Shown here piece after piece: positions 11,637 to 49,025 of a DNA stretch of 64,000 bases (position 1 is its first letter; the number at the start of each line of letters is the position of its first letter). Source of the DNA: Ascidia mentula (lineage: Eukaryota > Chordata > Ascidiacea > Phlebobranchia > Ascidiidae). The stretch covers positions 23,090,266 through 23,154,265 of the forward strand of contig OX387197.1 in the NCBI GenBank assembly GCA_947561715.1, read 5' to 3'. The translations under genes and the position numbers were made by a program. The notes beneath the pieces were generated by a model, which did no database searches, had not been told where the DNA came from, and saw only the letters and a list, made by a program, of their open reading frames with translations.

Positions 11637-14600
11637 ATGCTGGAGGGTTGTCATACAACTCTAGTGCGACACAATGCGGCGATTTGGTGCCGTGTCGTTT
11701 GTTGTTTACTTTTGTTTGGGAGTTTGGTTCACGGACAAGACGGTGAGTTACTATTTTTTTTATCGATAAACGACCGTTCTATGCAAGATCTAGCGCTAAC
11801 GAATCGCAAATCATAATTTTGTCAAGGTGAAGTGTTATTTTCTTTGCTATTCAACTAATTTTTAAGAATATTTTCGCAGTCGCGTCTGAAACAGATGTGA
11901 TCGTGCAGAGGCTCACATCCGCAGATTTGACAAGACACATTCCATATTTTCACCGCTACCTCTACGACGACCCGTCCACCCCCATGTATAGAATTCAGAG
12001 TGGGGGGAATGTCATGTACTATGGTGGCAACGAGGTTAGGTGATTTATATTTTTACGAACATCTTTGAAACGCAGATAATGTTCTATTTTACAACAAAAC
12101 ATACATGGATGTTTGCATGCAACAAATTTTATTAATGCAAGGCGATAAAAGCAGGCATAAAACTGCCCGTTAGACGAAATGTGGTGATACAATTTTGCGC
12201 TTTACCTTCCAATAATTTTTTACTCGACGTCGTCTGTTTTTGCGCAGGTGCATTATTCAGCAGAAGGGGGAACTAGCCTGGTCGCATATAACCAAACATA
12301 CAGGTAAATAAAAAAAATAACTAACGTAAGGTAGTATTTAAAAAGAATAACAGAACTGAAAAGTTGTATCTTTTGATAGTGGAACAAACTACACATTCAC
12401 CACGCTCGCTGTGCATCCTTTTCATGCCTTCTTCTACATAAATTCGTCTGATGAAGCATCATTTGCTATTCAGGTAACTCTACCATTATAATTTTAACAT
12501 ATATAGTTGGTCCAAAAAGAAAAAACCCACACCTTTTGACTACGACTCTCGTGTTATTTACGCAACCATAGGTAAGGTCATACCTTGCAACATACGGCGA
12601 AGTAACTTCAGACAGCTTTTCTGGCTCGGTATCAAGCGAAGATTACGTGTTGACGTTCGAAGGAAATCAAGTCCACGATGTATTTTCAGCAAGTGTGTGC
12701 GAAGTCTACTTTTACATTGCGAAGGTACGGATATACACACAACCTTTGCGTAAATACTACTTTAATACATTCCTTTGTAGGTGGTGCCTAAACTACCGCC
12801 ATTTTGCTTAAAATGCTTTCAGTACATGTTTTTGCGCACGATTATTCCAACGCCAACGTAACAAACATTTTTAAATTTTCCAAATTAATAATGACAAAAC
12901 TGCAAGCTCATCGAATAAATTTGGTAATACTTCTACCTTCAGAAAAACAACGACTTGTCGTTCAAGTTTTCTGCACCGTCGCAATCGTACTGGAACCGAC
13001 AAACTGGAGCTTCTCTCAGCGGAACACCCAATGACGTCATCTTCGGATTTGTTCTTCTTTCCGCGTAAGTCATTTTTTTAATTAATTTTCTCCTGCAATA
13101 GTGTCGAGAACCTCGTGTCTGCCAAAATTTGTTTCAGTCACGACTGCTCTTCGCGCAAAAACGAACGCACTTTATTTTTCGTAAACCACGCAACATTCAA
13201 AGGCACAAAAAGAAAAAAGGACATGCTAACACCGCTTGTGAAATCACGTGATGGGGTACAAAGCGCACATAGGGAGGCACTACAATTACAACAAGTTGTT
13301 GTATGGTGCCGGAAAATACACGCATCGTTGTTAATCATTAGCAAATCCGCTGTTTTCATGTATGGACCAAGAAAGAGCCGTTTGCCCAACGTTTTGGAGA
13401 AAGGGTTGGACAATGGCAAAGTACAGTAATTTATGCCAGAAGAGCATTCGTGTTAAACTTGTGGTATGCCTGGCAGCAAAAGTAGCACAAAATTTGTTTT
13501 GTAAGTGGGTGCCTATAGACAAACACCTTGATCAAATTTCTTTTCACTTTGGTTTTTACACAAGGTTTTAAATTAGCATGAATGCCGCCAGCAACGTCCA
13601 TTTCAATGATAAAAGCCTCAGTATTGCTTGTTTGTTGTGGTCATTTTTGTATGTACTGTTTTCGCAGCATGGTTATTTGCACTCCGTTTGTGGATGTTTT
13701 CGAATCACATACATGAACTTTTAACTTTCTCTGTTTTTTTTTTAAGTTTTGATCCAGGAAGTCAAATCACACAATCTCAGTTGGAAGCAACCATGCTCGA
13801 CATGCTGACTACTGTTACTACAGGCAGTGGTACAACTTTTGTCTTAGGCTACCCTGTTTTTCTGGCGTTACTTCAAAATTGTTTTTATTTATCATGGTTT
13901 TTCACAGACTGTAACAAGTGTTGTGTTTCTCACAAATATTAAATAGCGATTGTCTCGTGGTTTACATTAAAAAGTTTTAGACATTTTAACAATCATTATA
14001 TTCATTTGTCTGTAGGCACTGTCACCACTACGACACAACCTGTAACGACGGATGAAGGAAGTGAGTACTTCGAAGACTGTTTACGAAGTGGAATAAATAT
14101 CGTGAAACCGTTATCGTATTTCATTTGCAGTTACGAGGGAAACACAATTAATTTTGGATCGTCTCAAATCGTGGGATGTAACCTGTCACTTATCTGATTT
14201 CCAATATTACTTATACGATGACGTCACACCCCCTATCAACAAAATACATACCGGACATTACGTAAGATATTGGAAAGCTTATGCTGGAAAATTTGTACAA
14301 GTAACTATATTTTTTTGATAGATATCATTCTTAAACGACAACGAGGATATAGTTTTTGCCGACTACAACCAAACATACAAGTAATCGTAAATTCCCAACG
14401 AGTGACTTTGAGTATAATCGCACCATTTTGTCTCCGCAGTCGATCGGGATATTCCTTTTCAACGCTTGCAGTTCATCCGTTCAGTGCATTTTTCTACATC
14501 AACTCCACGGACGAAAAAGAAAGGAGTTACACTATAAAAGTAACATGAATTTTAAATTTTTTACCCTATAACTTACTTACTTGTGTAAGGAAAGGTTTCG

Positions 14601-17600
14601 ATTTTTGTGAAAAAGACCACGTATAAAAAAACCCATTTGGTTTGGAAACTCGATTTCTTTTTGTAGGTTTTTTCAAGCCAACTTTGGGGGTTATCTTGGC
14701 GGTCACGGTCATCGACATTTTCTGGATCGGTTTCAAGCGGAGATCACGTGTTGACTTTTCAAGGAATCCAATTGTTCGAAGGTTTCACACCGAGTGTGTG
14801 CGAAGTCTTTTACTTCGTAGCAAAGGTAAACAAGCGTTCCATCGCCTGTTTTCAAAAATAATCTTGCTTCGGTAACAGCAACAGCAGATTTAACGAGGGT
14901 TTTATTTTTTGCTAATTGCTTGCTTGACCTTTCAAGTGTAATTCTGCAGTTTTCCATGTTTACCGCGCATGATGCCATTTGTAAGGCACTGGACTTCCTT
15001 TCTTATATATTGTTTTATTCACACTAAATCACATGGTTACGAATATCACCACAACAAAAATTCGTATAAAAACGACAAGAAAATAGACCGAAATGTTTCA
15101 TGAAAAAGGGATAATCCTAGTTTCTGTCAAAAAATGATTTTGTATTTAAAACAGTAGTATTTTACAAAACGATATGATTGTCACGATATAATGTCAAAAC
15201 AATATGATTGTTACGATATGATTGTCCTCTTTTTACAGGAGGAAAGCGGTCTGGAGTTTGCTGTTAATGCTGTTCCAAACTATTGGACCGCTTTCCTCCT
15301 GTAAAAAGAGGACAATCATATCGTAACAATCATATTGTTTTGACATTATATCGTGACAATCATATCGTTTTGTAAAATACTACTGTTTTCAAGGAATCCA
15401 ATTGTTCGAAGGTTTCACACCGAGTGTGTGCGAAATCTTTTACTTCGTAGCAAAGGTAAACAACCGCTCCATCGCCTGTTTTCAAAAATAATCTTGCTTC
15501 GGTAACAGCAACAGCAGATTTAAAGGGGGGGATATTTTTGCTATTGGTTCTGCAGTTTTCCACGTTACTGCCCATGATGTCATTTGTAAGGCACTTATCT
15601 TTCCTTCTTTCTTATATTATTTTTATTCACACCAAATTATATGGTCACGAATATCATCACAAAAAAATTATGAAAAAACGACAACAAAATGGACCGAAAT
15701 GTTTCATAAAAATAGATAATCCTAGATCTGTCAAAAAATGGTTTTGTATTTAAAACAGTAGTATTTTACAAAACGATATGTTTTACTGTCCTCTTTCTAC
15801 AGGAGGAAAGCGGTCTAGTGTTTGCTGTTAATGCAGTTCCAAACTATTGGACCAGAAACAATGAAGCCTTTCTTTATGGAAACGCAAAAGATGCCATATT
15901 GGGTTACACGCTTTTGTCCACGTAAGGTTTCTCGAAAATTTCAAATCAGTGAAGGAAAAAAATAGTAATGTTTAGATTTTAAACTGAAATATTTGCTTTT
16001 AGTTGTTTATAACCATGTTATAATCATGTTTGAATTTTAGCCGGGAACCAGGTGGAGAAATCACGCAAAAAGAACTTGAAGAAATAATGCTGGGTATGCT
16101 CAATGTCATCACTACTGGAAAAGGTAGACAATTATGTCCTACTACAAGTTTTGTACATAAAGTATAATATAATTTTATGTTGTAGACACCGCCAATTGTA
16201 ACGGGGAACTGCAGCAGAATGTGACTGGTAAGCATTTAATGAGGAAATTTATCAAAAAATTTTCTAAAGAGTTCTGCCATTGCTATACGAATTTTTTATA
16301 TTTATAGCTTTGCCGGAAGTAGATGTTATTCTGCAGCGACTTGGCTCATCCGATTTGACACATGACATTTCGGATTTTTATTTCTATGATTATCACTACA
16401 ACGATTCAACTTCAATGTACAGAATCGAAAATGGCGGTGATAACATGTACGAAGCAGGAAACTACGTATGGGATATTTTCTTTAGTTTTGTCCAATTTTT
16501 GTGACGCACAATCTTTGTGACTCAGATATATTACATTGTCAACGAAAAGCGAGTCCAAGCTGAGTACAATAAAACATACAAGTAAGTGACTGAAACACGA
16601 ACTTGACGCAAACTTGTCAAATTACTTTGTAGCTGATCCATTTTGTTATGTATTTGATATTTATATCGCCTACTTATCGTTGCAGTGGTTCTCACTATTC
16701 GTTTATAACGTCCGCACGTCACCCATTCACCGCCCTTTACTACATTAACTCAACTGATGAATCGCAAGAAACTTTTGAAATTGAGGTAATGAATAATCTT
16801 GTTATGAAAATCATTCACCATTATTGATTAATCCCACTGTAGTTTGTTCGTTCTTTACTTTAACTGGGTCAACATACTGCAAAGATACGTGAAATGCATA
16901 CGTACCTCATCGACTAACATGTAAAAATTATCAAGGTGATTTCGCGAATTGGAAACGTTGAGCAAAACTGGAACGGAATCACAGAGAGTAGACTTTCTGG
17001 GAACGTATCGGACGACGAGTATGAATTGAATTTCCAAGGAATTCAAATATCTGAAGGATTTGCACCAAGCGTGGTTGAAGTTTTTTTTTACATTGCAAAG
17101 GTAAATACGAGCACACAGTCTCACACATCGTGTCCATTATAGTTTTTGTTTACTATGTTTTTATTAGTCTACAAGCGGACTGGATTTTACTTTTGTGGAT
17201 GGCCGGTTATGGAATTGGCAGGATAGGCGACATAGAGCAACACTTACAGGAAATCCTAAAAACGTATATTTTGGTTACATACTCCTTTCCACGTAAGTGC
17301 ACTTTACACGATATATGGGTAAAGATGGGCGAGTTTTCTCAACTGATGACATACGTTTTGTAGAATGTCACCTGGCCGAGAAATTACTCAGGCTCAGTTG
17401 GAAGCCACAATGTCAAATATGCTGAGTGTTCTAACAACAGGCGTTGGTAATTGAGTGTATTGTTTGCCCAACACTTTGAAAAAGTACTCGGATATTAGTT
17501 GCTAAAGACAAATAACTTTTTTGCGTAGGAACAACTTCAAGCAGTGCGCCACAACAAGATCCTGGTGGTAACACCTTTATGTTTTTATTCATATATTCAT

Positions 17601-20600
17601 TGATGGATCGATTAATGTTCGTTTTTGTGACTTTTGTGCACCGTGTTATATTTTAGGCATTTTTAATTGTCAGCAACCAATGTTATTTTGCATCAGTCAC
17701 TGAGCAAACTGCGGCGATTTTGATGCGACTACAATCTTCCAGTTTATTGAGACACATTTGTGATTTCCATAACTACACATATGATGACGTCACACCGCCG
17801 ATCAACAGTATTATAAGCGGAGGAGATGACATGTTTAACCGAGGAAATATAGTAAGATTTAACATTGGAACAAACGTTTGAAGTTATTCATGTTTTGCAA
17901 TGTGTCCAAGATTTATTTTGAAGCGGACGGGGAAACTAAACTTATCGAATATGATCGCACTTGCAAGTAAGTGTTTTGTCCGACATCTAATACAACTTAC
18001 TCGATTGCGAATCGTCTTGGCTAGTTATGTTCTAGCCACCTAGTGTATATGATTTTATTACCACTTGTCCATTAGTTTTTTTTTTGCTTTCAGCGGTTCC
18101 GATCACACATTTACTGCCCTCACTATTCATCCGTTCATTGCTATGTTCTACATCAATTCCACAAACCAGACGGAGAAGACATTCGCTATCCAGGTTTAGT
18201 TTAGTAATTAAACATGATGTGTTTACCTGCAATGAATAATGTATTTCCTCAATGTTTTAAAATACCTGCACACTCTGTCAACATAACAATCTTATGTATC
18301 TTAAGGTGTGGTCCCGAGTTTTTAACTGGAGGCAAAGAAACTCGCAACGTGGTTCTGTATCAAATGGTGACTACGTTCTGACCTTCGACGTTGTCCAAAT
18401 GTTTGAGGAATTTCAGCCTAGTGTAGTTGAAGTCTTTTTCGTTATTACTGAGGTAATTGGAAACCAATGACAAGTTTTTGTAGTGCAATGTATGGTTAAC
18501 TATCAATGCGTTACGACCAACAACTAAATACAATGCAACCTCACAAAGCGCAAAATATACTTTTATTTTCCGTGACAAGTCAATCCAACAAACTCTCCCA
18601 AAGCATGGGAGCTGAGTGTGTTAAAGAAGTTTAGTTTTTGAATTCGTGTGATGAGATTGTTCAAACGAATGAAAGTCTTTCTCTTCCCCAGAAAGATACC
18701 GTACAAACCATTTTTGTTTACTCACACATTTGTAGAAAAATCGAACCGAACCCATGTTGGTGGTTGATGACTGGAATCGAAACAATCAAATTCGAGCAAC
18801 ACTCACAGGCATTCCTCGAAACATCGTATTTGCATATATGCTGCTTTCAACGTTAGTCTTTTAACATTTGCTGGAATACTTGATGATTTGCGGTGATCAA
18901 CGCTAAAAATTTGAAGTGAAATATGAATTTTTATAAGATAAATTTTAAAACCTAATGTACTGGAACTGTAATCCAACCTAATGTATTTTAGTAAAAGCCC
19001 AGGAGAAGAAATCTTGTTATCACAACTGGAAGCAACCATGTTAGACGTATTGGTGACAATTACGGGAGGCAATGGTAAGTGAATATTGTACACATTTCTT
19101 GAAACCCAATTAAATTGGAATCCATGTCATATGCCTCAAACTCCAATAGCGGGAGGAAATTTGTTTTTTTCTAAAACAATTGTATTTTGTTTAGTTTTTG
19201 ATCTGATTATCAATGTGTTTTTAGTGTCACTTGCTGAACCAGAAGAACCAATCGATCAATCGGGTAAGTCTTTGTAATGACCTTGAGCGTCCACGCAGTT
19301 CCACATAATGGATAAAAGTCTTGACAAATTACGTTTGCTTCCGTCGCTGTTGCTGTTGTAACACAAACGTGTCATGCTGCAGTTGCCCAGGAAGCAGAGT
19401 TGATGAGACAACGACTGAAATCTGGAAATTTCACCCGACACCTTCAAGACTTTCACCACTACACGTATAATGATAACGACAGTTCATCCATGAACCACAT
19501 TAATAATGGAGGAGAAAACATGCTGCAAGAGGGGAATTATGTGAGTGGATTCACTTTCACATCAGATCTCGTTTGGTTTTAATTTTGATCTCGTTGGTTT
19601 TATATTTTCTTAATTTTCAGGTGTTTTTCATCGTCAATGAAAAAAGGGTTCTCGCCACATACAACGAAACATATCAGTAAGTTTAAGATTATACGAAGCT
19701 GTTACGATTTTGGAATGTCAGCGAGTATTCGCAACAATTCAAAGTATCTGCCAACTTGTTGTGGTAAATAATTTTTTCTCGGGCAACCGGTTTTAGTTCT
19801 TTTTTGGTGGAAATGTGATTGTACAGATGCAGATTAAACGAAGCTAGGAACTAAATATAAAGCTTGTTTTGTTTTACAGTGGTTCGAATTATTCGTTTAT
19901 AACTCTTGCTGGTCATCCATTTCTTGCCCTTTTCCACATAAACTCAACCCAGCAGACAACAAGAAGCTATTCAATCGAGGTGATGTATTTTGTTGTAGTC
20001 ATTGTAGAAAACCACAAGAGACCTGAATCATTCCTATTGAACAGGTTGTTTCAAGAGTGTCATCTAGCAGTTCGTCCACAAAACATGGTTTGGTTTCATA
20101 TGGAGATTATACTTTAACGTTTGAAGCTTACCAAATATTTTCCGGGTTTCGCGCCAGTTATTGTGAAGTATTCTTTCATGTTACAAAGGTAAGTGGTGTT
20201 TTTTCGACACGTGTTCAAAACCTTTGGACCAAAACAGGCCACTTGGTTTAAGGCGATATTTAAATCCTCTTATCTACGGCCCAGTTGATTTCAATGCTTC
20301 ACTTTGTTCTTCAGAACCAAAGTGGAATTCAAGTGTCCTTTTTCATACCTTGGAGCAATTGGGAAAGACGAAGCAAAGTTACTCTTACAGGGATTGCTTC
20401 AGCCGACATTCTGGGTTACGTGCTGCTATCTACGTATGAAACTCGATGTTAACAAATTACTGATACTTTATAATTTACTCTTATCAATTAATGTTTGACC
20501 TTATAACTCAGTTCATTGTTTGGTTTCTTACAACTGTAACATGCGAACACGTTTTGAAATCAATGTCATCGCAAGATGATGCGAAAAAAATCTTTAACAT

Positions 20601-23600
20601 ATGGTTACACACCAAATTTTATTTGTTTCAGTAAAACACCCGGCCGTGAAATCACTTTGCCTCAACTTGAAGCAATAATGCTTGATATGCTGTCAACCAT
20701 GATTAGCGGCCAAGGTTGTAGCCTATTGGGCGTATCTCAGTGTTTTTGAAATTAACCTTCCTTGGTTTTGTTACAGGGACGGATTCAGTCGAAGAAACAA
20801 CTGATCCAGAAGGTTAGTGCAGCTTTAATAAACTAGATGTAGCACAATGTTTGCGAAGTAGGGCTGGAGGACATGATAAACCCATTTGTTGGTCACCCAT
20901 CAAAATCATGACATTTAATTACAATTATTTATGTGACTGGTAATAAAACTCATTATAAATGTTAGTGGAAAGCTTTTGACTCGGGTGTAAATATTTTATT
21001 AGAATAAAGTGGAATCTGAAAGCCTGGGTAAAAATGTTTGATATCTACAGGTTTCGCAGATAATCAAAACAGTTTTTGCTCCACAGTTGCCCAGCAAACA
21101 GCACTTATTTCACAACGATTGGAATCTTGGGATATATCTGGACTATTTCCTGATTTTAACCGCTATCGTTATGACGACGTCACTCATCTTAACAACTTTA
21201 TGGTGAATGGAGGGTCCGGAGGAACGATTAATGGATTTGACCAAGCAAACTACGTAAGTCGGTTATTCAATTCTGCTTAAACAACTATGGCGTCAATATA
21301 AAAGCGAAAGACTTGATAAGTCTAAAAGTGATCGATTTCAAGCATTTTTCTAGAGTGAATATGCAAACTTCTCATATGAAGCTTTTTTACATGTGTTAGA
21401 TTATCTTTGACGTGAACGGACACAGTGGTTTGGCAGAGTACAACAAAACATATAGGTAAGTACAAGTGCATGAGAATTGGTTTTATAATCGTGGTAACAA
21501 GTATACATGCATTTTAGTGGTCCCCACAGCACGTTTACGACGCTGGCAGTTCATCCATTCCACGCGTTCCTCTACGTCAACTCAACAAATCAAACCGAAA
21601 GTAGCTACAGCATTGAGGTTATTTTGTCTGATCCAGATTTTAATACAACGTTCCAAAATAACATGTTGAGTTCCGTATTGCATTCATAAATTCCATGTCT
21701 ATGTGGAGTCAATGCAATCAAACTGGATTAAAGTCACTCCCAACCTGCTTTGGCATTCAAAAAAGTTTATGACTTCTGCTTACGTCATTGTTTTGTTTTC
21801 CTTTTTGCTATAGCTGCGTTACACATTTTGTGACATTATGTTATTGTTTCATTCTTTAACTGGTTATATTTCTATATTTATAGGTTTTGTCAAGGTACAT
21901 TTCTGTGTACCAACAAAACGAACTGAGTGGTGTTGTGTCAATCGGTGATTATATGTTATCCTATCAGGCAAGACAATCTTACGGGGGATTTCAATCAAGT
22001 TTTATTCAAGTATTTTACTACATTTCTAAGGTAAGCAGATTGCAATCTTGAAAATAAATTTTAAAAAATACCTAAAACATACTCAAGTCACTTAGCGTCA
22101 CGCCGAATGGAACATGCTGCTGAACAAAATACATAAAATGTAAAACAGAAAACATAATTACACCAAATTATTGTTCTTTAATTCTGGTTGTTTGTGTGTA
22201 TGCAAATGTGAATTTTTTTTCTTTTTAAAGAAAGTTTTTCCTGTGTCTTAGAACCAAACTGGTTTTGAAGTTAACTACCCATGGTACAATTGGCCAAGGC
22301 AAAACAAACAGACTCTTACTGGAAAGGTCCAAGATGTCATTCTTGGTTATACTTTACTATCAGCGTAAGTGGAAACCTAGCTTCGTCACCTTTGGTTTGT
22401 TTTGAATGGTACCTTCCGATTGTCAAAATATACAAAAGCCAGTGATTGGCAGTGAAACCAAATGAAAACCCACTTATGATGAAACGTTCCGCGCGTTTTT
22501 GAAGGTTTTCAGTAACAATAAACATGACCTGAAACACCTTTAATAATACTATCAGTCATCAACAAACGCCATCGCGTTATTTTTATAGGCAGGACCCAGG
22601 GCGTAACATCAGTCACGTACAACTCGATAGGATAATGGAGGATTTGTTGTCTATCGTGACTACAGGCAACAGTAAGACATGTGTTAATACTGTGTTTTTT
22701 TAATGAAAATCATTTTGTTAACGTCTTATACCCTAAACGGTGTTTATTTTTATTTTTGTGAGAGAAAGAATATGTTTTTAAACATTTCGAAATTAAAGCA
22801 GTTTGAACACTACCTGGGAAACGGAATATTAAAAGTTAACGAAAAAAGGTTTGATTTTTTTTTAACTTGGTAAACAGAAGTCGGATGTATTTCAGGTTCT
22901 CGTCAAAATGAGGAACAGTACAATCAAGAACGTAAGTAACACCTCATCGGTTTTGCATTCTTCGAAAACTTGACTCTAATTTCACCCAGCAAAATAACTT
23001 TTTTGTACTACTGTAATTGTCATTGAACCTTTCGCGTGTTTCCAGTTGCAGAAAAAAACGGGATTATAGCAGAGCGGCTTGAATCTTCTGATTTAACAAG
23101 ATGGTTGCCAGATTTTTATGAATATTTTTACGATGACGTTACCCAACCTATAAACCACATTGTGAGCGGCGGAGAAAACATGTTTACCGACGGAAACTAC
23201 GTAGGAACTGATTTTTATTTTATGAAAATTATACTGGTTTGATTTTCTTTTATTTTTCTTTTCTAGATACTTTTTGGTGCAAATGGAGAAACGATTTTAG
23301 CGGAATACAACAAAAGTTACAGGTAAATTTAACAGGGCAACTGTATTTAAAAAGGGCACAATCATCTCTGACCGGTTTAGCTCAGTCAAATTGCCGTCCC
23401 GGAAGCATCGCTGATGGCTTGTATGAGTCCTTTGCCTCGCACTATTACGCGTATTAAGATGATTAGTGAATGGCATTTAGGAAATTCCAGCTAAATTTGC
23501 CAAACTTTTGATGTGTTTTATGAAGCAGTTACCCACTTTTTTTATTTGATAGTGGCGCACATCACTCTTTAATAACCACGCCAAAAAAACACACTATAGA

Positions 23601-26600
23601 AGACACAAACGTTAACACTAGAGGCGTAAAGGAGCTGACGATATAATGCGTGTTCCATTTTGTTCCTAGTGTTTCTTTTGATGGTAGCAATATTGTCTTG
23701 AACTTTCAGCGCTTCAGATTACTCGTTTACAACGATGGCTGGTCACCCTTTCATTGCAATAATGAACATCAACTCATCAGCTCAAACGAATAGCAGTTAC
23801 TATATCCAGGTAATTCAAAACTCTTTAAAAATGTCTTCGAAACTTTTTGTCTTATTCCCATAAAAATCTTGTTTTTCATCAAGCCAAAAACATTAGAATT
23901 ACTGAAGGCAATTTTTAACGATCCTACAATTTATCCTTTTTATGCAATAGATGTCGTTGTACTTCGTTGTTAAATGCCCACTGTACATGCTAATTGTTTC
24001 TCACTTCGTGTGTCTTCAAGGTTTGGACTGAACAAATATCTTCATATGAAAGGAATGAATTTACAGGATCTGTGACCAGTAACGGTTACGTTTTGTCGTT
24101 TCACGGAGTTCAGTTTTTCTATGGATATACCCCAAGTGTTTGTGAAGTCTATTTCTACGTAACAAAGGTAATTGAACCATAAACACTACATGTTTGTCAA
24201 TGCAGAAAAAACTTAAAATTTACCCTATAACCAAAAAAACAAATATTTTTTCTTAAAATCCACAGACTACATTTAAAAATAAGCAAATTGTCTGATTCGA
24301 CCATTTTATTTTTAGGCCCAACTTCAACTTGACATATCACTTTCTTTGATATCCTATGGTACCTGGCAGAGACAAAGTGGAATTGCCTTAAACCAAAATG
24401 CCCAAGACGTTATCCTTGGATACACACTTCTTTCAACGTAAATACAAATACATCAGCCTTTCTTGTTTTCATACATCAATGTAATTTCGTGTTCCCAACC
24501 ACTTTTCTGCTACATTTCAGACAGAAAATAGGGCGTCAGATCACAACATCCCAAATGGAGAAAACGATGCTTGATTTACTGACGACTATAGTTGTTGGGA
24601 ATGGTGAGTCGCTTTTATCGTTCTAGATAAATTCTGTTTTACCGCATCACAATTTAGAATCTAGGGTAGACCTTTTACTTGCAAGAGAAAAAAAGTAAAC
24701 GCAATGTATGTGTTTTCCAGACGTATTTGAGTGAAATATTTTTCCTTGGTGGTTTTTTAATTTTCTCATTTTCTGTTCAAATATTACACGAAATAACTAA
24801 ATCATGCAATGTTTGTGCAGTGACGGCATTAGATCAACCGGACCCAACTCGTAAGTAAATCATTCACACATTCAGTTGTAAATGCTCAACAAACATTCAT
24901 CAATATTTCTTTACTTTCATGTTGGTAATGATGTCTAGTGGAAAGAAAAGCGGAAATTCTTTCAAGACGCCTTCAGGCTTTGGACTTAACGAAGCACATC
25001 GAAAGATTTTACAATTATCAATATGATGACGTAACCCCTCCCATTACCAACATCATGAGTGGTGGGAGATCAATGTATCATGAAGGAAACTTTGTAAGAC
25101 TGCTTCCGCCCAATTTGTATCCAAATTAGTAATAGATGTGATTCTTAGGTGTATTTGTGCGCCGACGACGATAAGTTTTTGGTGGAGTACAACAAAACGT
25201 ACAGGTATGTTGGTCTGTGCTTTGGTCAGTAATTGTTTAGGAATCAACTTTCTAAACATTATATATAGTGCGGCAAACCACGTGTTCACCACATTCGCTG
25301 GTCATCCATTTACTGCACTTTTGTACATCAACAACTCAACCGATCAAATCGAAAAAAGCTTCTGTATTGAAGTAAGCCCGAAATCGCCAATCGTTGTGAA
25401 ATTTCTTCGCATTATTTTGCTACTCTTCATGTTTTGACGGTTTTTAATGAAGGTGTTTTCGAATGTCCAAAGTCAATATTACTGGTATGGTAATGGCGAA
25501 CAATTCTCCCTTCCTTTCAACGGATCTGTGTCAAACGACGATCACCTTATGCATTATCAGGGAGTTCAGTATATTGGTCGATTTGATGCCAGTGTATGCG
25601 AAGTTTACTATTATATTTCGAAGGTAATCTACGTAGTTTTACTGGTCGGTTGTTTAGACTGTGTCTAATCCTGAATCGTAAATGAATACTTCAAATACTT
25701 TTGTTTGTTTTCAGAGCTCAGCTAACATTGATTTCACCTTTACGTATCCTCCATACTATTATGGACGAGAAGGAAACAAAGCTGTTGTCAGTGGAGATCT
25801 TCGCAATGTTATTATGGGTTATACACTATTTTCAACGTAAGTCACAAACCTTTGGCTTCATTGTAAACCGTTACAATATAGGTTACAGAAACTTTTATCG
25901 GTAAACTATTTGTTTGTTGGCAGCTGTAGGTGTTTTATACCCAATGATGAGCAGATTCTATCATTGTTCTCGCATTCTCGTTTGTAAACAATTCCACAGC
26001 AAACAATTTAATGCCAAAATAATTCTGCAGTAAATTATGCATGAATATTTGTTAGTTATTACTGCAAGTGTAAAATACCCAAAAAACTGTTGTTGGTCCG
26101 TTTTACAATTACACGACGTTATCTCTCTCAAAGATTTCTTCCACGCGAAATACCGAACGATGAATTGGAGGCAGCCATGCTTGAATTATTGGAAGTGCTT
26201 ACCTGTGAAGGTATAAAATATTCCGTGATTTTGCAGAAACCGATAATGGCTCAGTGGGAAAAACTAATTTTTCATTGTTTACGATAAACTAGCTGACTCC
26301 AATCCGACACACCTTGTTTCCAACTATTTAGTTCTTCGAAATTTATGTGTATGACCTTAAAGTTTTCAATGAAAGTATCACTGAAAACGCGAACATAAGT
26401 TTTTGTAATAATTACGATATGAATTTCATTCACAGTGGCATGTTTTGTTTTATTTTTAGAGTGCGATCCAAAAGAAGTGACAACTTCAGGTTTGAAAAGC
26501 AACTTATTTTAATCTAATAATAAATTGCATTTATAACAACGTCTCGTGCCATACAAATGCTACGGTCGTAGTGCTACAATTCGCAAAAAACTTATTTAAC

Positions 26601-29600
26601 AAGCTTGACCTTTTTTGCAGTGGATGGCTACCCAGGCACAAACGTGATCCTATTGGCTATAACCAAAAAGAATGAAACCACGGCAACGCGCACCTATTTC
26701 ATTCAAGTCACTGGCGGAACGGAAACAAAATCCCTCACGGCTTTTGACGTCGAAACATTCTTGATCACTGATCTAACGCCGGAAGTGACGTACACGGTTG
26801 TGGTGTCTGTTCTTAACGACGGTCTGCTTGACACCGCCTTAACTCTAACTGTTGTCACCAGTAAGTAAAGGATTCAATTAGCCGCAGACAAACGACATTC
26901 AAAAGCTTGTTGATAATACCAAATTTCTTTCTTTTATTGTCTCTCCCTTTTTTCACTTTCCAGGTTTATCTGTGCAGTGTGTCTGTGCAATGCAATGGCA
27001 TTCACAAATCAGTTCTAAATAATAAAGTGTGATTTTCAGTGAAAACATAAATCATAAACATTCACCCGTAGAATGTGTATGTAATTTTAACCTTCTCACA
27101 CCGTTCCAGCGAAAACCTGCACCTTGTCCTGTACAAACGCCAACTGCATCGCGTTCAACTCCACAAGGACAGAGTGTGTTTGCAAGGTTGGATACGAAAA
27201 ACACCCGAATCAGACCAACGTATGTTTGGATATCGACGAGTGCCAACTATCATCTTGTCCTGAAGATTCAACTTGTTCCAACAGTGATGGCTCATTTGCA
27301 TGTCGTTGTCCCACTGGTCTCCAGCTATTCGATGGCCAATGTGTGGGTGAGTATTGTTATAATTAACCACATATATGTTTCTTTTTGAATAAGACAGAAA
27401 CTGAAGATGATGCCATTAGGCGAAATTAATATTTCTTAAATAAAGATCTTATGCTGGTGTGATCGCCGGTTACTCCTTTCGGAGCCCTAGGAATTAACCA
27501 CATATATGTTACGAATTCGAACACTCACATATTGCTTGTAATAATGACCAATACATTTACTTATATGTTGAAATTAACAAACCGATCTGTAGAAAGCTCA
27601 GATGGTCGATATTTTTTAGAAAAATATATTTCGCCTAAAAAAGGCATCATCAGTTTCTCCAACTTATTTAAATAGAAGCTGAATTGATAAGTTGCGCGAT
27701 CGACAGGGGCCGTCAAATTGATCCATTTTTTTCATTCTGTAATCACACTATAAATTTTCTCATTGGATTTTTTTTTGTATGTTACAGAAGCCAATATCTG
27801 CAACCAGGAACCTTGTGAAAACGGGGGAACTTGCACGACGGGTAACAGTAGTTACTCCTGTAGCTGTCCCGAACATTTCTTCGGTCCACGGTGCGAGTAC
27901 TACACAACCCCATGTCTGAACGTACCTTGCCAAAACGAAGGAACCTGTGTTGATTTATCCGGAAGTTTCAGATGCGACTGTATTTCAAACTATACAGGTT
28001 ATAATTGAGAGCAAACTATATTTTCTTGACTGTGGAGAACTTCGCAGTTGCTTCGATAATGTTTACAAATGGGGAATCTATTAAAACGATATGCTTATGT
28101 GTGTTTTAACTCAATGTTACAAACAGGGTCGGTATGTGACGTAGATGTGGACGAGTGCAGTCAGGGTACGTTTAAATGCGATCCCAATTCTCAATGTCAG
28201 AACACAATTGGTGATTATAAGTGCAATTGCAACGATGGATACAGGTATGTTCTACCAATTCCGCTTATTGCGGATCCTTAGTTTTATGAAAGTCAAACCA
28301 TAATTAATTTTAGCGGCACCAAAATATAAAGAGTTCTGTGTCATCAGTTTCTCGGTTATATCATCGAAGTTATCTAGTTACTGATTAGCTAATCCATTTT
28401 ACAGAGGTGACGGAAGAGATAAATGTTACTTCATAAGACTAATTGCTTATGGAGAAAGTGTGAACGACGAAGTTTTGACGATTTCAGACGACGTTGCTTC
28501 TCCCGTACTCAAGTATATTCATCAGATTAAATTATTTTACCGCAAATGCAACAATTCTGATCATTACTGTTCAAAAAGTATGAATTGTAATAATTTCAAG
28601 ATGGCAAACACCAACAAGAAAGAACTGGGCTGTTTTCCCAGTTCTGTTCAATATAACGCACTTATGGGCCCAGGCATTAAGCACCTTTTTGTACCACAAT
28701 CGCATACAACCATACGAAGTACTACCACCATATGTCGCAACAACGTAGTGTGTAATGTCGCGAGTCTTTGCTGTGGATTCGGTGCAAACTTTGTGATCCA
28801 CTGGTTGAATTAATCGTTTCAGGGCGTCGTTTGATATTCCCTTTGGAACAAAGACCTTCAGCAACATGCGCGTGACATCAAACGGTCTTATAACACTTGG
28901 ACTTGGCTCCTGGTTCGTTCAGTATCTCAGCCGTCCCTGGTACAACGGATTCAGCTTCTTTGACATCGGGATGATTGCGCCGTTCTGGGACAACTTTCAT
29001 CCGAGTACAAATAACAATGGACGCGTTTATTATCAGGTACTGACATCATTATTACCTGTGATGCTTTCTCATGTCGCAGCTTTCTAAGTCTAAGTGTCCA
29101 GTTTGTTTATCCGTTCAGTATTATTTTACATGTTGTCTGTTCAATTCGTCTTGTTATGCTTTGTTGTTGTTTGGTTTACTTTTGCTGTTTATGTTGTATT
29201 TTCTGTTGCTGTTGTTGCTTAACAACTGACCTTCTGGCCTGCTATGCATCAAGGCTTCATCAGGTTTATTTGTGCCAAGTTCAATTTCTTGGACGCCACC
29301 CTGTGATTTAGGTCACGGTCATTTGCTTTAAACGTTGTCTTTTGTTTGAAGGTCTATAACAAAGGAGAGGCCACCTTGACGGAACAAAGTGAAGCTGTGG
29401 TCGGAGAAATTGCAACGAGAATCAACAATCGGTTCGATCGCCAAGATTTCAATCCACTGTTCGTGCTGAAAGCTACCTGGAATAAAGTTGTCATGCACGA
29501 CGAGTTCTATCATCGAGACTATGTAATATGAATAAAAGTTTGCATTGGCAGACGTACTCATGGCAAATGTTTCACAAGTACATCCTTATTGGCTTCACTG

Positions 29601-32600
29601 TCAAGAACACCACATTTCCAACTTGGTAACCTAAATATAAAAGCCATGTAAAATCAAGTGATATACCAACACTTCTAAACCGAAAATGTCGATAAGACTT
29701 TTTATAATTTATGTGCAAGCGAATACTAACATTGAAAATCAGAATTTCACGAGTTCCTGTTTTTATCTAAGTTATTTACGTAGCCAAGCACGTTTCAAGC
29801 CATCATAGCAAGCGACGGTGCCGACACCTACCTTATCTACAACTACAAGGAGGATGCGATGATGTGGGACACGCGCAGAAGATATCCGTGGGGAAACCGA
29901 GCTCTGATTGGATACAGTTTTGTTTTGGGTCAAAGTTTTGTTGAAGTTCAGGGAGATTACAGACCCGACCATAGAAATCAAACCGGAGGTGAAACTTTTT
30001 AAGTTTAGTTCGTATATTTTACGCGAAATGAAACAAGTTTCAGGATAAGTAATTTGTGCAAGTGTAAAGAAAGTGGGAAAAGTGCTAAAACATTTATCCC
30101 CTTCATGGCGGATTTAATAAGACATTTTGCGTCCTGTTATATAAATCAATACTAAAATCGGTTCGAACACAATAGAGTACCATTATACCTAGTAATATTT
30201 TTTTATACTATACGTTTTATCGTTTTGCAGGCGGCCCGACCGGTCAGTACTTTTACCACGTGGCGAAAAGAATCACGAACATACAACGGGCAGTAGCCAC
30301 TCTCGAATGCGTCTCGTGGTATGTGAGAGAATCAAGCAACCCTTGGTCACCCGATTATGAACCATGTCCCTGCACAAGTTTGCAAGCTAGAAGAGATCCA
30401 AGCTTCACGTGGTCAGTGGACGTGCAGCTGTACTGGAATGCAAGATTCAACAAGTACTACCCCGACTACTACCGAACTGCCAGTATTGAGGAGTGGGCTT
30501 ACGATGAAGGTACGTACATGCTGTCAATACTGCGTAACTCTTTGCTTACAATTACCGACCAAACATGTTCATTTTTACCTTCAACAACAAGGATTAAAGA
30601 TTTAATTTCACACCACTTACAGTTAGTTGAGTTTATGTTTAATCCAATTGTAAGTTGCAGGCGATAGATCACTCAATTTATTCTGTAATCTTATCTAGAT
30701 ACTTTAAAATGGTGAAACTATACAGTTGATTACCAAAATACCAATTTACACAATGAAACGTGTTATAAACCACATTTTGCAGTGGGACTCTACAACTGCT
30801 ACCAACCACGAGTAAACACTGGTCCAAGATGTTGTTACTCCCCACGATCCAACACCTTCTCACCGTTCTGGGGCTGGTGGAGTCAAAGCCCTCTCATATC
30901 TGGGCCTCTGTCGAGTCGCTACGAGCGGAGTCAAATCCCTATCTTTGAAAGAACTTCGTGGTGGTCCTGGGTTTCCTTTAGAGATGAGGAACTATTTAGC
31001 GCGCAATTCAACTCATCCATGCGTAAGATTTGTGGGATTTTTTTATGTATGACTGTTTTGTGAGCTTGCTTTTTTCGCCTGGTTTGAACTATGATCCACA
31101 AAATAAAAAGCGAAATTTTATTAAAGTTTATTTCGATAGAAAACGATCTCATTCCAAGACGCCAATGCTGTGTGGAAAGCCAAAGCCAAACTTTATGTGA
31201 CTTATATAAAGCTCTGCGCCCACCGGCGAATTGTACGGGATACGTTCCACGGAGAATATGTGAGTTTTGAAGGTTAATATTATGTTTTTATCGCAACAAG
31301 TTTTACTATTTTATTCACCCTAATTACGTTTAAAATGTATTAAATTGTTTCCAATCAGATTTTTTGAAGACAAATTGTTTTGAACACAGTAGATGAAAAG
31401 CTTTAGTTTCTAAAAGTGGCAATTACACTTTTTATTTCAGCGTTCTTCTGGGGTGACCCTCATATTACGACCATCGACGGCGTGACGTACAGTTTCAACG
31501 GTTTGGGGGAACATCACATGGTTTACGCACCAGGAGTTTTCTCCTTGCAAGCCCGCACCAAAAAGGCAAAGAAGGAAGACATGACGGACTCGGACGCAAC
31601 TGTGTTCGTGGCATTCGCTGCAAAGGATCTTGCATCAGAAAACTCCGGCACGGTAAACGGCATTTTGAATTCTTATACCTCATATCCTACGACTTGTTTA
31701 TGCAACCGTTGTAACCGTTTCATTGGAAATCGCATTTAAAGAAAAACTGTTGTCTGAAAATCCTATAAAATCCGAAAGTATTTTAATTGAAGTATTTTAA
31801 TTGAATAAAAAAATACATGATTGGTTTGTTGCATTTAAAGCTTCAATTTGAAGTTGACTTTGACAACGAGAATGGCGACGGTGTGATTGTCAAAGTGGAT
31901 GGAAGCGTTGTGAACAATATTACGGACAGTAAGTAACGAACCCCAATTTTGATGTATAAAATACTACTTGATTGCGACGTAAGTTACATGTTAAATGTTT
32001 CAAATTTCTACCCGTACAAAGACAGCTTTCCCAATCTATTTGTGCATAGGTAAATACCTTTAATAATGCCGTATTTTTGACAGTATACCCAACGTATCAA
32101 ATTAAAACACAATTGTTTATTTCCGGTGGAACAAACTACTCTTGCTATACGAAATACTTTGTTATCCAAAAGGCTTGTAGGTTAGCGGGCAATGCTTTTA
32201 TAAACAATACCCATGCTAAAGGGGACTGTATGCAAAAAATCCCTAACCTTTAACTCACTTGCTTTATAATGATCATTACTCGAAACTTACATATTTAATA
32301 ATCGTTGTTGTGAAGGTGAAACCATTGTTAGTGAATTGAGTTTAACCCAAGAAAACGGAACGTACACAGCTGTTTTTCCATCCTCCCAATCCCTCACCAT
32401 CACAGCGAGCAACTACCTTCTTGCCATGCAGTTTACCGGCGACACAAAGTCCATGCAAAGCATCTCGAAGGGCCTTTTGGGTGAGAAAAAAGTATTTTCT
32501 TTCAGCAAAGACAAAATACTGCACGACATGTCAATTGCAAACTTGTTTTTTTTTAGTTTGTTACGGTAAATTGTAGTTTTTTTTAAAAAAAAGCTTTTTC

Positions 32601-35600
32601 GGTGATGTTCTGATGTCCAAGTTTAACTTTGACTCTTTAAAGGATACTGGGACGGTGATAAACAAAACGACTTTGAGATGAGGAATGGAACGACCATGAA
32701 TTGGGAATCCCTACAACCTACAGAAAACCTGGACATATTGAATGGAACCCTGTCAGAGAGGTTACTGTATCCATTTGGATTATCATGTGAGAAAAAAGTT
32801 CCAAACTTTTACTTTTATCAAAACGCTATTGCATTGACAAACAATCGGGACCTTAATCAAACTAGTAGTGTTCACATAAAAGTGAAAATGCTAGAATGGC
32901 CCTGATTTTCTGAAAATTGTGATTTGACAAACCTGAACATGCTAACAAACAAAAAGGCCCATTTAGGCAAGGTGTAAAACAAAGTTTTTTATGGGTCTAC
33001 TTTTTTGTCAGGGAAATTGCACAACGCAAGTGAAAGCTTCTTCAGCTACAGCGGTGATTCAATGGACACATTTGTAAATCACAATCCAGTTAATGGGGAT
33101 GCGCCTCCTTTCCTTGAGGATCTCGTTAAAGATCAAAGAAATTCGAGTCACTTTGCGCAAGTTCTGTCAAACTGCACGACCAACGGCGTTGTTTCAACCA
33201 CTTGTCTCTATGATGTTTTGACAACAAACAGAAGCGACATCGGAGAAAACACGAAGTCCGAGGCGGAAAGCACAGAACAAATATCGAGGGCAAACGGTGA
33301 GATTCTAGCAGATTTCATAGCGTTCGGGTGAAAGAATTTGTCCTGGTAAAATCGCTTGAAGCATATGCTATAATAGTAGGATAAGCCTATAGTTTTAACG
33401 CGCCCAATGTCCATCGTCAATTTCTGTAATGCAAAAGCAACATATAACAATCAAATAGAAAAATATAAGCAAACGTTTACAAGAAATTAAAATCTGCCAC
33501 AGCTGCACATTTGCCTAAATTACTACTAATCACTGTACTTTGATACGCGTAACACAAATAAGTCAAAAAGTTGTGTTTACTCTAATATGTATTCATTGCA
33601 GCCAACTCCTTGCCCGTTCTGGCCGTATTGGCGTCCACGAACATACAGATGATGAACGGTAGATACACCCTGATGGCCCAGATTAACGAGATTACAACTT
33701 TCGCTGTGACAGCTGATGATGCAGACGGGCACGACGTCACGTTCGCTTTACAACCGGAGGATTCGATTGAGGGAGTTTCTATAAACACCAGTGAGTCACA
33801 TAGTGGCACGCCTAGAACTTACGTTAGTGCAGAAAGTGGTGATAGGAAAAGCAACAAGAGAAAGGTCATGTGATGTAATACCCAAAGTTAAATGGTCCCT
33901 ATAAGCCCTGTAAATTATTTTTCACTGCGTCAACATAGAAACTGGCAATATCATGAAAATGATAAACTGCTCGATAAGGTCTTGGAGTTGAAGTTACATG
34001 TCGTATAAGTCACCAATATAATTTTATCGGTTTTCTTTCAGCCAGTGGAGTGGTTACTTGGACACCCACGACCGACCATCGGATTACGAGCACGACAAAT
34101 CGTACACTGACGGTGATAGGCACTGACAGCTTGGACGGTGAAACTATCCTGCCGATCAATGTGAAACTTTGCGTTTGTCAGAACGGAGGGACTTGTCTCT
34201 TCAGCGACCCAGTGTTGGGCAGCGAAAATTATCAGGTTTCAAAATGTTATGTGGTAGTAGAATAATTGTCCCGTAGAGTTCCAAACACACAGAGATTTTG
34301 TGACTATTTTAGCACCGAATCCTATCTTAATATCAATTGGTTTATCAAGACCCTGTGTTACGAAGCGAAAATTATTAGGTTTCAAAATGCATGTAGTTAG
34401 ATCAGAGTTATAGAGTTAATATCTTCATGACCATTGTGAACACGCTCCAAAGCCGCGAGATTAACGTATCTTGCATTGGTTAATGTTGTTACGTCTCTAA
34501 ATAAGGTCAATAGATTCATTCATTTTAGGGGAAAAGGGCAATTTTTGGTAAACTAATCGGTAAAAAATTATCGGTGTAAATTTATTATCGTTGAAAGATT
34601 GTCGACTGCGAATGCACTGACGCCTGGACTGGCGCAGACTGTACAGAAGATAGAGATGGTTGCCGTTTGTCACCTTGCTTCAGTAATGTTACATGTGAAG
34701 ATGTGCCAGCTCCAGGAGTCGGAGAAGCGTGCGGGGATTGCCCTGAAGGAACAACAGGTAAATTTCTTTTGGACAGAAAGTTATTGTGGTTTGTGTCAAA
34801 TCCGATTTGAGGAGTTTTGGTTTTACTATAGTCGATGTATAGTGTAGTGGTGTAGTTGCTATCAATATCGAAAAGTTTATGCTAAAATGTATTCTAAATA
34901 TTGCCAAATTTGGTATCTCTCTTACAAGCTAGGACACAAGTTATGAGGAAAATAAAAGGACAAAAGCTAGCAATTAACAAAACATTATTATATTTCGCCA
35001 ATTCAGGTGATGGGAGAAATTGTACGAACATTGACATGTGCAGCTCGAATCCGTGTGAACATAATTGTGAACCACTCTACAACGCCTTCACATGTTCTTG
35101 TAACGAGGGATACGTTTTGGTGAACACAACACAGTGCCAAGATGTGGATGAATGCAGTTTGGGAAACCCTTGCAGCGCTGTACACCACACGTACTGCGTT
35201 AACACGCCTGGAGATTTTAAGTAAGGTTTTTTAAAGTCTATGCCGATTAAATCAATAGTTTCTGAATCATTTTTTCCTGTGGATCAACGCAAGGCAAGTA
35301 ACAAAATTAGAAAAACAATTCAGAATAAGAGCAAAACTTTTAATTAACATGATTAACATCAACAAAATATTTTCTTTTATATTTTAGTTGTCTTTGCAAT
35401 CCCGGGTTTGACGACAGTTCAGGAAGTTGCATGAACGTAGACGAATGTTCAACAGGAACCCACAATTGTTCTTTAGCTACAACCAGCTGTCAGGACATTC
35501 CAGGATCCTTCGCTTGTCCCTGTTTGCCAAACTACGCAAGGTGGTTCATGTCATTTAATACTGATATACAAAACGGTCCAAAAATGTTGATTTAAAACAA

Positions 35601-38600
35601 ATTGTGATTTTTGTTATATTCTGTCCATAGAAAACTCTAATTTTGGAAATTCATTAAAAAACAAAACATAATGAAATGAATCATTTTGTTGGGGAAAACC
35701 TTTGCCTGCGACCATCGAATCTTCGTGATAATTTTCAGTTATTTTTTTTAGTTAATAAAGTTTTTGCGGGTAATGCTGTAATGGAGGACAATAAGGTTTT
35801 TATTTTCAGCCAGCATCACTGGCTAAAGTACCATAACGTACTGAAAATAAAATACCATAACCATACAGTTAAATTCGTACAAAACTCTAGGCCTTACTTT
35901 TAGGAATGCCTCGGAAAGTGACGAGACCTCCTGTGTGGATTTAGACGAATGCACTGCAAACTTGCACACTTGCGATCGACAAACCGAAGATTGTATAAAC
36001 GAGAGCCCTTTGTTCAAATGCATTTGCAGGTATGGGAGTAAATGCATCTCAGCATCCAACCTTAACACAAATACGTATTGCAATCAGTTTTAAATGTCCA
36101 TCGGTATACCTCAGGTCTGGTTTCGAAACGGTTAATGGAACTTGCCTGGATATCAAGGAATGTTCCAATCCGACTTTGAATACATGCAACGGCAACGGAT
36201 CACTCTGTGTCGAAGAGGAAGGGAGTTTCCACTGCGAATGCTTGGCTGGTTACAACATGAGTGAAGACGGGGTAAGTGTTGATTTTCGTTTTAATTAACG
36301 ACATACAAATTTATCATAAAATTTGTATTTTTTTAAACCTGCCACCCTTTCAAATTCATACCTCTATTCAGAATCATATGACACGAATCTGCTAAATTTT
36401 ACAACACAAACACCTCTAGAATGTCCCAAAGCAATTTACATTCAAACGTATTAAAAAATTATTAATGTTTATTGGAGAATTGTTAATGTAACAAATGAAA
36501 GTATTAATCGAAACAAATTAGGGTGTTCCTTATATTTTATAACCGCTTACTTGTCAAAAAAAATCAATGTGGTTACAAACACAACACAAAAAATACAAAA
36601 TAAAATTTATTAATGACAGCTGCAGACAGGGTGTATTGATTATTATGGCTCTTTTGCGCATATAAAATTTATTAAATTTTGTGAAAATTAATCAATATTC
36701 AAAGAAAACAAACTTAACGTTTGTCTAGACTTGCAACGACGTCGACGAGTGCGCGGATGCTAACATCTGCTCAACAGGAATGATTTGCTCTAATTTCCAT
36801 GGAGGTTATGAATGTTTGTGCTCTGCCGGTTTCTCAATAAATGCAGCGGGGGTAAGCAAAATCATGTTAGAAATATACGTAGAAATTGTGCATACAGTTT
36901 GAGAATTAATATACCAATTTATTGTGTTTACTTAGACGTGTTCCGACAACGACGAATGTACGGATCAAAGTATTTGTCCTCAAGGCTCGTCGTGCTTTAA
37001 TCTTGATGGCGGATACGAATGCAGATGCCAAGTTGGTGTCGAATGCACCAGTGAGTTAAAAAGTCACAAACCAATTCAATTTTTCTGTAAAATAGGCTTG
37101 TGCGACAATTACTTTGAACTAGTCTCAAATTGAAATACCAACACTTACGTTACCGATAATTTAAATCTAAGTACGTTTAAATTACCATTGAACATTTCCC
37201 AAGCATTTTCAGTTCTAAACCTAGAAACATCCATAAAGAATAGAGTAAATTGACCCTTACATTTTTGTGCAGTTAACCCGCAGTTGGACCAGGCAACTTT
37301 GTTACAAGTTACAACTGATTCGATCACAGTGACTGTGGACGCACTTGACTTATACGATCAATACGAGGTGACTATGTTACATTTGTCTGGTGCAAAAGAT
37401 GTTTTGCTTTCTGAAACAAAATTAATGTAGTCTACCAACTTAATACCGCTAATAATTGTAGTAAAAAAGTGACTTCTTATCAAAAAGGTTTCATGTTATT
37501 ACTGTTCAATTAAATCTTTAATTTATTGTTTAATTGTGTCGTTTGTCGACCACAACTCATTGATTGGTATTTCAACATCTTTGTATTATAAGTCAACAGT
37601 TTACTTTATCGAATATTTTTATGGTTAGTTGCAAGCTGTGGATTCCGATGGAACGGTGACCACCAATACGTCAACTGGAACATTTGCTTCAATCACTGGC
37701 CTGAAGCCAAATACAAACTACACGATACGCGCAAGAGTTCTAAAACTGAAAACTTCCGACCACATTTATGAGGAATCGAATTTCAGCGAACCTCTAATCG
37801 CCACCACTAGTAAGCTAAACTTCGCGCCTGCAGTTATTGAAAACCTGAAAATTAGTTCATTTGATGGTTCAAAAAACTTGTCTGTGGGCGTTGTGGTTTT
37901 ATTAACGTTTCAGATTACAAACCTAATATTGGTGATTACAACAAAGACAATCGCTGTTCATTTTGACTTTGACGACACAGGTCACAATACCTGCAATACA
38001 AAACACTAAAAATGCGCATGAAGTTTTTTGATCACCAAAATCATCAAAAATCACATACAAATGTGTCACCCAATTACAGAACAGGTGGACATATAGTAAT
38101 TATTGCACTGTTAATTTCAGATGCAATTGATTTGGCGCTGGTTGTGACGTTGGTCGGTGAAGTTTACAGTCAAGATCTAACCGACATCTCCTCGACTCAA
38201 TCTCAATCATTGCGCAACGTTTACGAAAACGCGTTGAGGGAGCAACTCAAGTCGGTTGTGGGTGGCGTAACACTGCGATTCAAAGCAATTACTTTCATTG
38301 CCTTCAGGTGGGACATAAACTTAAAACACTCAATGCAAAAGAAGTAGAAACGTGCGGTGCAAAACTATCGATATATCGTTGTGTTTTCGGTAATACAAAA
38401 ATCATGCGTGACTGAGAAATGTTTGCACATTGCTTTTTGGTAATATTATTCGTTGCAACGACATGTAGAAGCGGAAGTGTGGTCGCATCAGCTGTTGGAG
38501 CTCTGGACACCAATGATCCCAGTCACCGAACAGCTGTTGCTGACGGAACCGACCTTGATGCGGCAACATTCCGAGACTTTTCACCCAGTAAGGATATACT

Positions 38601-48988: not shown

Positions 48989-49025
48989 TTTATCAGCAGT
49001 CGTGCTTGATACTCGGGGTCACCAA

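Follow-up and report, generated by a model that had tools for sequence, protein, structure and literature searches.

Eight tandem domains of an apparently unnamed family at the outer end of a predicted MUC4-like membrane protein in Ascidia mentula

A series of similar exon groups on the plus strand of contig OX387197.1 of the ascidian Ascidia mentula (assembly GCA_947561715.1) raises the question of what kind of domain is repeated here, which protein carries it, and what such an array may do. The window, i.e., the whole 64,000-nucleotide (nt) stretch analyzed, was originally predicted to hold eight consecutive copies of an unassigned extracellular module of about 235 residues between positions 11880 and 26489, each built from the same seven exons (A to G). 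With a splice-aware reading, all 56 cassette exons (8 x A to G) were located with AG/GT boundaries throughout, in the expected order, and the array started in cassette 1 and ended in cassette 8 as claimed (Table 1). The symmetric 1-1 cassette was likewise borne out, with outer boundaries at phase 1, the six inner ones at 0, 2, 0, 0, 2, and 1, and with 8/8 cassettes divisible by three and devoid of stops. The near-fixed exon lengths held with exceptions; exon B measured 56 nt in seven of the eight copies (59 nt in copy 2), exon C 100 nt in six (94 nt in copy 1 and 103 nt in copy 8), and exon F 83 nt in seven (77 nt in copy 8). As for the signatures said to recur in every copy, HPF and the sequon within YINST were present in 8/8 modules and the YNxT sequon in 7/8, but copy 2 lacked the GG..M...GN head and copy 6 had a changed form of it. 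Mean column identity among the eight modules was 54%, modules 2 to 8 were only 39 to 46% identical to module 1, and the domains showed a surplus of N-glycosylation sequons (38, compared to 21.6 after shuffling). Used as a genome-wide pattern, HPF..A gave mostly noise (420/425 matches versus 347/350 in the control) and was rejected as anything but a lead.

The array belongs to a gene (11637 to 41699) of 95 coding exons and 3991 residues with one stop, at 41699, composed of a signal-peptide exon, the 56 cassette exons, and 38 exons 3' of the array; we infer the splicing of this model from sequence. The encoded protein would contain, in order, a signal peptide, the eight modules, an FN3-like segment, EGF, NIDO, VWD, a MUC4-type C8-3 domain, EGF/FN3, a SEA-like region, and a transmembrane segment, and across the whole protein NIDO, VWD, C8-3_MUC4, many EGF_CA, and fn3 domains scored above the Pfam cut-offs. 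With signal peptide and transmembrane segment judged by eye, the product is a predicted single-pass, MUC4-like membrane protein, and the position of the modules behind the signal peptide supports their predicted extracellular nature. NIDO, VWD, and the MUC4-type C8-3 domain, together with EGF domains, a transmembrane segment, and GDPH at the VWD domain, are shared with MUC4 and cnidarian mucin4-like proteins as far as the cited descriptions go (PMC9080433, PMC8660890), and in MUC4 GDPH has been described as a putative cleavage site (PMC8660890). Sea-anemone mucin4-like proteins are described as combining NIDO, AMOP, and VWD, some with a C-terminal SEA domain and an N-terminal FN3, CUB, or ZP domain (PMC9080433). 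The window protein likewise has a SEA-like region and FN3, and at the place of AMOP a Cys/Trp-rich region was seen by eye for which Pfam gave no AMOP match at E 0.01. A mucin (PTS) tandem-repeat domain was absent before NIDO, that stretch being made up of the module array, the FN3-like exon, and EGF; MUC4 thus has a tandem-repeat domain where the window protein has eight globular modules. We therefore conclude that the scaffold is of a known kind and that the array preceding it is the difference.

Window positions 8113 to 43099 have a partner in the same genome (C1:23029865-23064411; 91 to 97% identical over the main gene pieces), which contains a sister gene about 68 kb upstream of the window gene and about 95% identical to it overall. 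The sister copy has 95/95 exons of unchanged length, 94/94 AG acceptors, 94/94 GT donors, and a single stop at the same place. Introns of the pair differed at 5.1% of 17,255 aligned bases and had 104 gap events, compared to zero gaps in the exons. Since exon lengths, frame, and splice sites are all kept while the introns gap so often, the cassette model holds beyond chance, and both gene copies look functional. The ratio of nonsynonymous to synonymous divergence (dN/dS) between the copies was 0.25 for the array (0.14 to 0.38 for single modules) and 0.15 for the rest of the gene; in this comparison, every module thus shows purifying selection. Both genes have eight modules, matched position by position, and in a tree of the modules every window module paired with the same-numbered sister module, while modules within one array lay far apart. 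This pairing indicates that the array predates the duplication and has not been homogenized, and we reject the idea that slippage enlarged the array recently.

Two local features of the pair were also seen. Modules 4 and 5 (17697 to 20812) had a synonymous divergence (dS) of 0.16 and 0.14, compared to 0.012 to 0.046 in the other six, a difference of threefold or more that would fit a separate history of this stretch. In copy 2, exons D and E are separated by a 977-nt intron (14826 to 15802), compared to 348 nt in the sister copy; it holds a 107-nt inverted repeat (15145-15251/15286-15392, 99%), direct repeats 604 to 630 nt apart, and what by eye are defunct, incomplete copies of these two exons.

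It could be argued that the second copy (C1:23.03-23.06 Mb) is the other haplotype, left in the assembly by mistake, in which case its support would be allelic. The intron divergence of 5.1% lies within the range that haplotypes of very polymorphic ascidians can reach. However, a repeat in window 1-7207 (in pieces) precedes the window gene while its partner follows the sister gene, which misfits a simple doubled haplotype, and so does the higher divergence of modules 4 and 5; we regard this explanation as possible but doubtful. The gene model stands in either case.

The original prediction saw in the GG.xM..GN part a faint likeness to motifs in uncharacterized invertebrate proteins, which proved a good lead, as the window modules carry an eroded version of DGGxDM[F/Y]DxGN. 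In the genome, this exact motif gave 61 matches, compared to 0 for the reversed pattern; they fall mostly into three regions, C2:5.165-5.207 Mb (18), C2:11.97-12.35 Mb (26), and C1:19.755-19.94 Mb (11), with six outside them. Canonical paralogs (locus L054 at C1:18.50 Mb, and C70:7.557 Mb) carry DGGxDM[F/Y]D.GN, GADGGG/GADGSG/GADSGG, D[P/A]S[I/V]CE, and GYTLLSK and fit a reading in the exon phases of the window cassettes. Among 12 locus pieces of another cluster, seven gave an exon chain, corresponding to five different modules with the same six exons A to F (phases imposed by the search; short E exon in 2/5), and five gave none. The C8-3_MUC4 domain was found at 11 places, seven of them with module matches upstream (the window gene, the sister, and five in C1:19.77-19.96 Mb), all seven on one contig in two clusters; the places at 19.819 Mb, at 20.005 Mb, and two on C69 had no module among the matches listed. 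Hand-counted module heads in the five paralogous genes numbered at least 4, 5, 7, 8, and 6, lower bounds given that the same rows show only 6/8 window and 5/8 sister heads, and variation in copy number is thus unproven. Separately, the 18 exact motifs in C2:5165536-5206993 lie on one strand at about 2-kb spacing, probably marking another tandem array, longer than that of the window and built of canonical modules, and a 6-kb piece of this region was readable in the same exon scheme (phases imposed). The genome also has two GH6 matches above the cut-off, compared to 0/14 control genomes; as GH6 genes are reported from tunicates (PMC7464555, PMC10334666), this makes a tunicate the most likely source by gene content.

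Outside animals, a DNA pattern for DGGxDM[F/Y]DxGN matched at least 118 stretches in prokaryote genomes and 94 in viral contigs, of which 80 and 80, respectively, were listed. Bacteroidetes, Verrucomicrobia, Planctomycetota, Acidobacteria, Zixiibacteriota, Neomarinimicrobiota, Latescibacterota, and other bacterial groups were among the matches listed, as presumably were cyanobacteria and Chloroflexi, taking our assignment of genus and class names to phyla. Of 222 motif-bearing frames, 203 were long enough for the whole domain (120 bacterial and 83 viral), and all 120 bacterial and 48 non-redundant viral sequences, the latter divided 27/21 by head motif, were compared with hhalign. The window modules matched the bacterial profile at 96.0% (E 4.1e-9, 192 columns), the two viral groups at 96.4% and 75.5%, and the paralogs at 100%; paralogs matched bacteria at 99.4%, and 11/11 reversed controls stayed at or below 2.6%. 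Because the sequences had been selected by the motif, the comparison was repeated with everything through the motif removed. The window modules then matched the canonical paralogs at 99.9%, bacteria at 76.4% (E 2.2e-5, 95 columns), and the viral groups at 77.8% and 29.3%, whereas paralogs matched bacteria at 97.1% (E 7.7e-11) and 6/6 reversed controls did not exceed 0.2%. The profile similarity thus extends beyond the motif and in the full comparison covers most of the module length, and the link between window and bacteria rests mainly on the chain via the paralogs. Unlike the bacterial and viral relatives, each window module is spread across seven exons, and the eight follow one another in an array.

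A viral scan with the window profile gave 48 stretches that fit the pattern, none of which was confirmed, and it was the motif pattern derived from the paralogs that succeeded instead. A tblastn search of phage records with two family members as query gave no match, and in BFVD two models from uncultured phages were found at E 2.4e-17 and 1.3e-13. In the four bacterial proteins scanned, the neighboring domains were lectin, LamG, HYR, Ig-like, or protease domains. In a family tree of 33/88 bacterial sequences, 14/27 of the first and 21/21 of the second viral group, and eight tunicate modules (motif-sampled, with tunicates as the only animals), the tunicate modules formed one clade (98/94), which grouped first with a single viral sequence on a long branch (97/82). 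Together these joined 18 viral rows (100/100), and the 33 bacterial and 16 remaining viral rows lay separately. A transfer behind the tunicate-viral grouping is possible.

No named domain was known for the module, and this held in the scans made. In Pfam, 0/8 window modules scored above a cut-off (best E 0.072), nor did any of three canonical paralogs and four relatives; NCBIfam matched 0/3 (one window module and two relatives), and PHROGs, scanned with viral relatives only, 0/3. Weak Pfam rows for DUF3696, Phage_spike_P1, ADPrib_exo_Tox, Tir_receptor_C, CRIC_ras_sig, and DUF3104 (E 0.013 to 0.11, below cut-off) were judged to be chance. In PDB profile searches, no solved relative was found for the window modules (best E 0.12) or for the bacterial relatives, whose best match (E 0.012) was an unrelated kinetochore protein over 45 residues. 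The motif strings had no match in the literature searched, and no title there describes such an array. By these library scans of the scanned proteins and this literature search, the family is apparently unnamed. The module is therefore unassigned in the sense that no library model matches it, but it is no isolate, the original prediction having missed both an old, widespread family and the MUC4-like protein behind the array.

How far do the window modules resemble this family? In 88 of 100 non-redundant bacterial references (A3) and 27 viral relatives (A4), the constancy of the motif is partly by construction, the relatives having been selected by it. D40, however, lies outside the viral search pattern and yet was D in 27/27 viral relatives, and at two positions unused in selection, D108 was kept in 87/88 bacterial and 27/27 viral sequences and D139 in 85/88 and 27/27. 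The window modules keep GG (7/8), M (6/8), G49 (7/8), and N50 (7/8), but hardly any of the aspartates (D40 0/8, D44 1/8, D47 1/8, D108 0/8, and D139 1/8), the first motif aspartate being replaced by S or N and the second mostly by N. Five modules of the 19.8-Mb cluster were in between (D40 4/5, D44 1/5, D47 2/5, D108 0/5, and D139 0/5), and three canonical tunicate modules had all five, one with ADS for ADG and one with DAS for DPS. GADGxG was found in 0/8 window and 0/5 cluster modules, as was exact DPS, copy 8 having DAS. Without the exact motif and its aspartates, GADGxG, and DPS, the window modules are, by their sequence, derived relatives rather than canonical members, and the graded series suggests that they look like a late stage of a stepwise loss of acidic positions on a retained scaffold. 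The conserved aspartates may represent a metal or ligand site.

The bacterial and viral relatives, the only sequences modeled, were predicted with high confidence to fold as a helix-capped beta-sandwich, in the order N-terminal helix, motif, strands, and C-terminal helix. Their best PDB structure matches were moderate, to domains of carbohydrate enzymes, namely the sandwich domains of GH65/GH116/GH94/GH92/GH63 and PL17 lyases (presumably what is called a "supersandwich"), at sequence identities of only 3 to 13%; unlike those enzymes, the relatives had no attached catalytic domain that we could see, and they have extra capping helices. By alignment to the folded relatives, exon A would encode the N-terminal helix and the motif, exons B to E the beta strands, and exon F the C-terminal helix, and one cassette would correspond to one whole domain plus a short linker exon.

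The combination of eight sequon-rich domains with a MUC4-like stalk points to a multivalent protein of the cell surface that serves in adhesion or recognition. We consider it on balance probable, by a modest degree, that the array consists of tandem domains of an ancient, unnamed helix-capped beta-sandwich family, carried outermost on a MUC4-like membrane protein in the position of the MUC4 mucin repeat region and forming a multivalent, N-glycosylated rod. Cell-surface glycans or glycoproteins would be the most likely ligands, cleavage at the GDPH site of the NIDO-VWD-EGF stalk may release the outer part, and we infer a tissue role of this kind. The main competing explanation is that the array is a structural spacer, i.e., a stiff, N-glycosylated substitute for the MUC4 mucin repeats that lengthens or shields the protein and has no ligand. 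The loss of the family aspartates, the sequon surplus, the constant order and number of modules in both copies, and the location at the mucin position all agree with a spacer. However, modules that have diverged strongly from module 1, show no homogenization, and are nevertheless all held by purifying selection are more readily explained by individual functions than by a repeat kept only for length, and we think a pure spacer rather unlikely.

A receptor for self/non-self or gamete recognition, from a multigene family diversified for this purpose, could account for the two clusters of C8-3 genes with upstream modules (7/11 places, one contig) and for the duplication with about 95% identity. 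The dN/dS of 0.25 in the array, with no module above 1 (whole-module values from one pair), and the equal module number in the pair speak against it, and as variation among the paralogs is unproven by the lower-bound head counts, we reduced our already low estimate a little further and regard such a receptor as improbable. Least probable is a catalytic member of a mutarotase or glycoside-hydrolase-associated sandwich group, given the low identity to the matched structures, the loss of most family aspartates from the window modules, and the PDB matches, which we take to be mostly to non-catalytic domains. The multivalent, ligand-binding rod is thus the explanation that we prefer.

The rest of the window holds several other features. 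On the minus strand, an open frame at 42487-43641 is C-type-lectin-like (just under the Pfam cut-off) with a transmembrane-like segment by eye; its tail contains a 36-nt tandem repeat of 9.4 copies (42501-42840) encoding GPANSSFYEGSV-type units, and its surroundings are duplicated next to the sister gene. Frames resembling a long terminal repeat (LTR) retrotransposon (45351-49018, minus strand) encode protease-like, reverse transcriptase, RNase H, and integrase segments, with an upstream frame containing DUF7041. An RRM protein at 61935-62492 (minus strand) resembles RBM8A/Y14.

Table 1. Features of the module-bearing gene (positions in the window)
Feature	Position	Strand	Exons or basis
First coding exon, signal peptide (by eye), ends in phase 1	11637..11742	+	Open reading frame; retained in sister copy
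Module cassette 1	11880..14060	+	11880-12034, 12248-12303, 12380-12473, 12572-12724, 12943-13064, 13747-13829, linker 14016-14060
Module cassette 2	14131..16227	+	14131-14261, 14322-14380, 14440-14539, 14667-14825, 15803-15921, 16041-16123, linker 16186-16227; exon A without GG..M head
Module cassette 3	16308..17567	+	16308-16465, 16526-16581, 16686-16785, 16936-17100, 17168-17292, 17364-17446, linker 17529-17567
Module cassette 4	17697..19263	+	17697-17851, 17911-17966, 18094-18193, 18306-18452, 18736-18851, 18992-19074, linker 19225-19263
Module cassette 5	19383..20812	+	19383-19540, 19621-19676, 19880-19979, 20045-20188, 20315-20433, 20632-20714, linker 20777-20812
Module cassette 6	21087..22931	+	21087-21253, 21400-21455, 21518-21617, 21884-22030, 22252-22364, 22589-22671, linker 22896-22931
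Module cassette 7	23046..24850	+	23046-23200, 23267-23322, 23710-23809, 24021-24167, 24316-24437, 24521-24603, linker 24821-24850
Module cassette 8	24939..26489	+	24939-25093, 25149-25204, 25269-25371, 25453-25623, 25715-25836, 26134-26210, linker 26460-26489
FN3-like exon, phase 1-1	26621..26860	+	By eye; Pfam at E 0.01 reports no FN3 here
EGF and Ca-EGF domains	27110..28244	+	Pfam
NIDO domain (Pfam stretch reaches a few residues into next exon)	28823..29988	+	PF06119, E 5.2e-24
Cys/Trp-rich region at the place of AMOP	30231..31259	+	AMOP by eye only; no Pfam AMOP at E 0.01
VWD domain, GDPH tetrapeptide at start	31441..32786	+	PF00094, E 1.2e-8; GDPH by eye
MUC4-type C8-3 domain (33137-33286) and region after it	33012..34235	+	PF23263, E 2.4e-6, above cut-off
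EGF/Ca-EGF array	34598..37050	+	Pfam
FN3 domains and SEA-like region (38121-38587) with GSVV stretch	37273..39531	+	fn3 above cut-off; SEA PF01390, E 0.0068, 17 bits, below cut-off of 26.4; GSVV by eye
Membrane-proximal EGF domains	39801..41405	+	Pfam
Transmembrane segment (by eye), short tail ending YADI and stop	41572..41699	+	Sequence

A broader and more speculative idea, to which we give little credence at present, is that tunicates took up or kept an ancient bacterial or viral recognition domain and expanded it to dozens of copies or perhaps a hundred, with the worn-down cassette arrays on MUC4-like proteins serving as lineage-specific receptors. If true, these receptors would act multivalently at the cell surface and recognize microbes, glycans of the tunic, or other individuals. 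The analysis ties an odd repeat to a domain family that has no name in the scanned libraries, although many bacterial groups and viral contigs carry it and this genome has dozens of copies. Its alignments and predicted fold would give others a basis for annotation. As a single genome holds copies in the canonical, intermediate, and worn-down state, the way in which a conserved site is lost can be tested directly.

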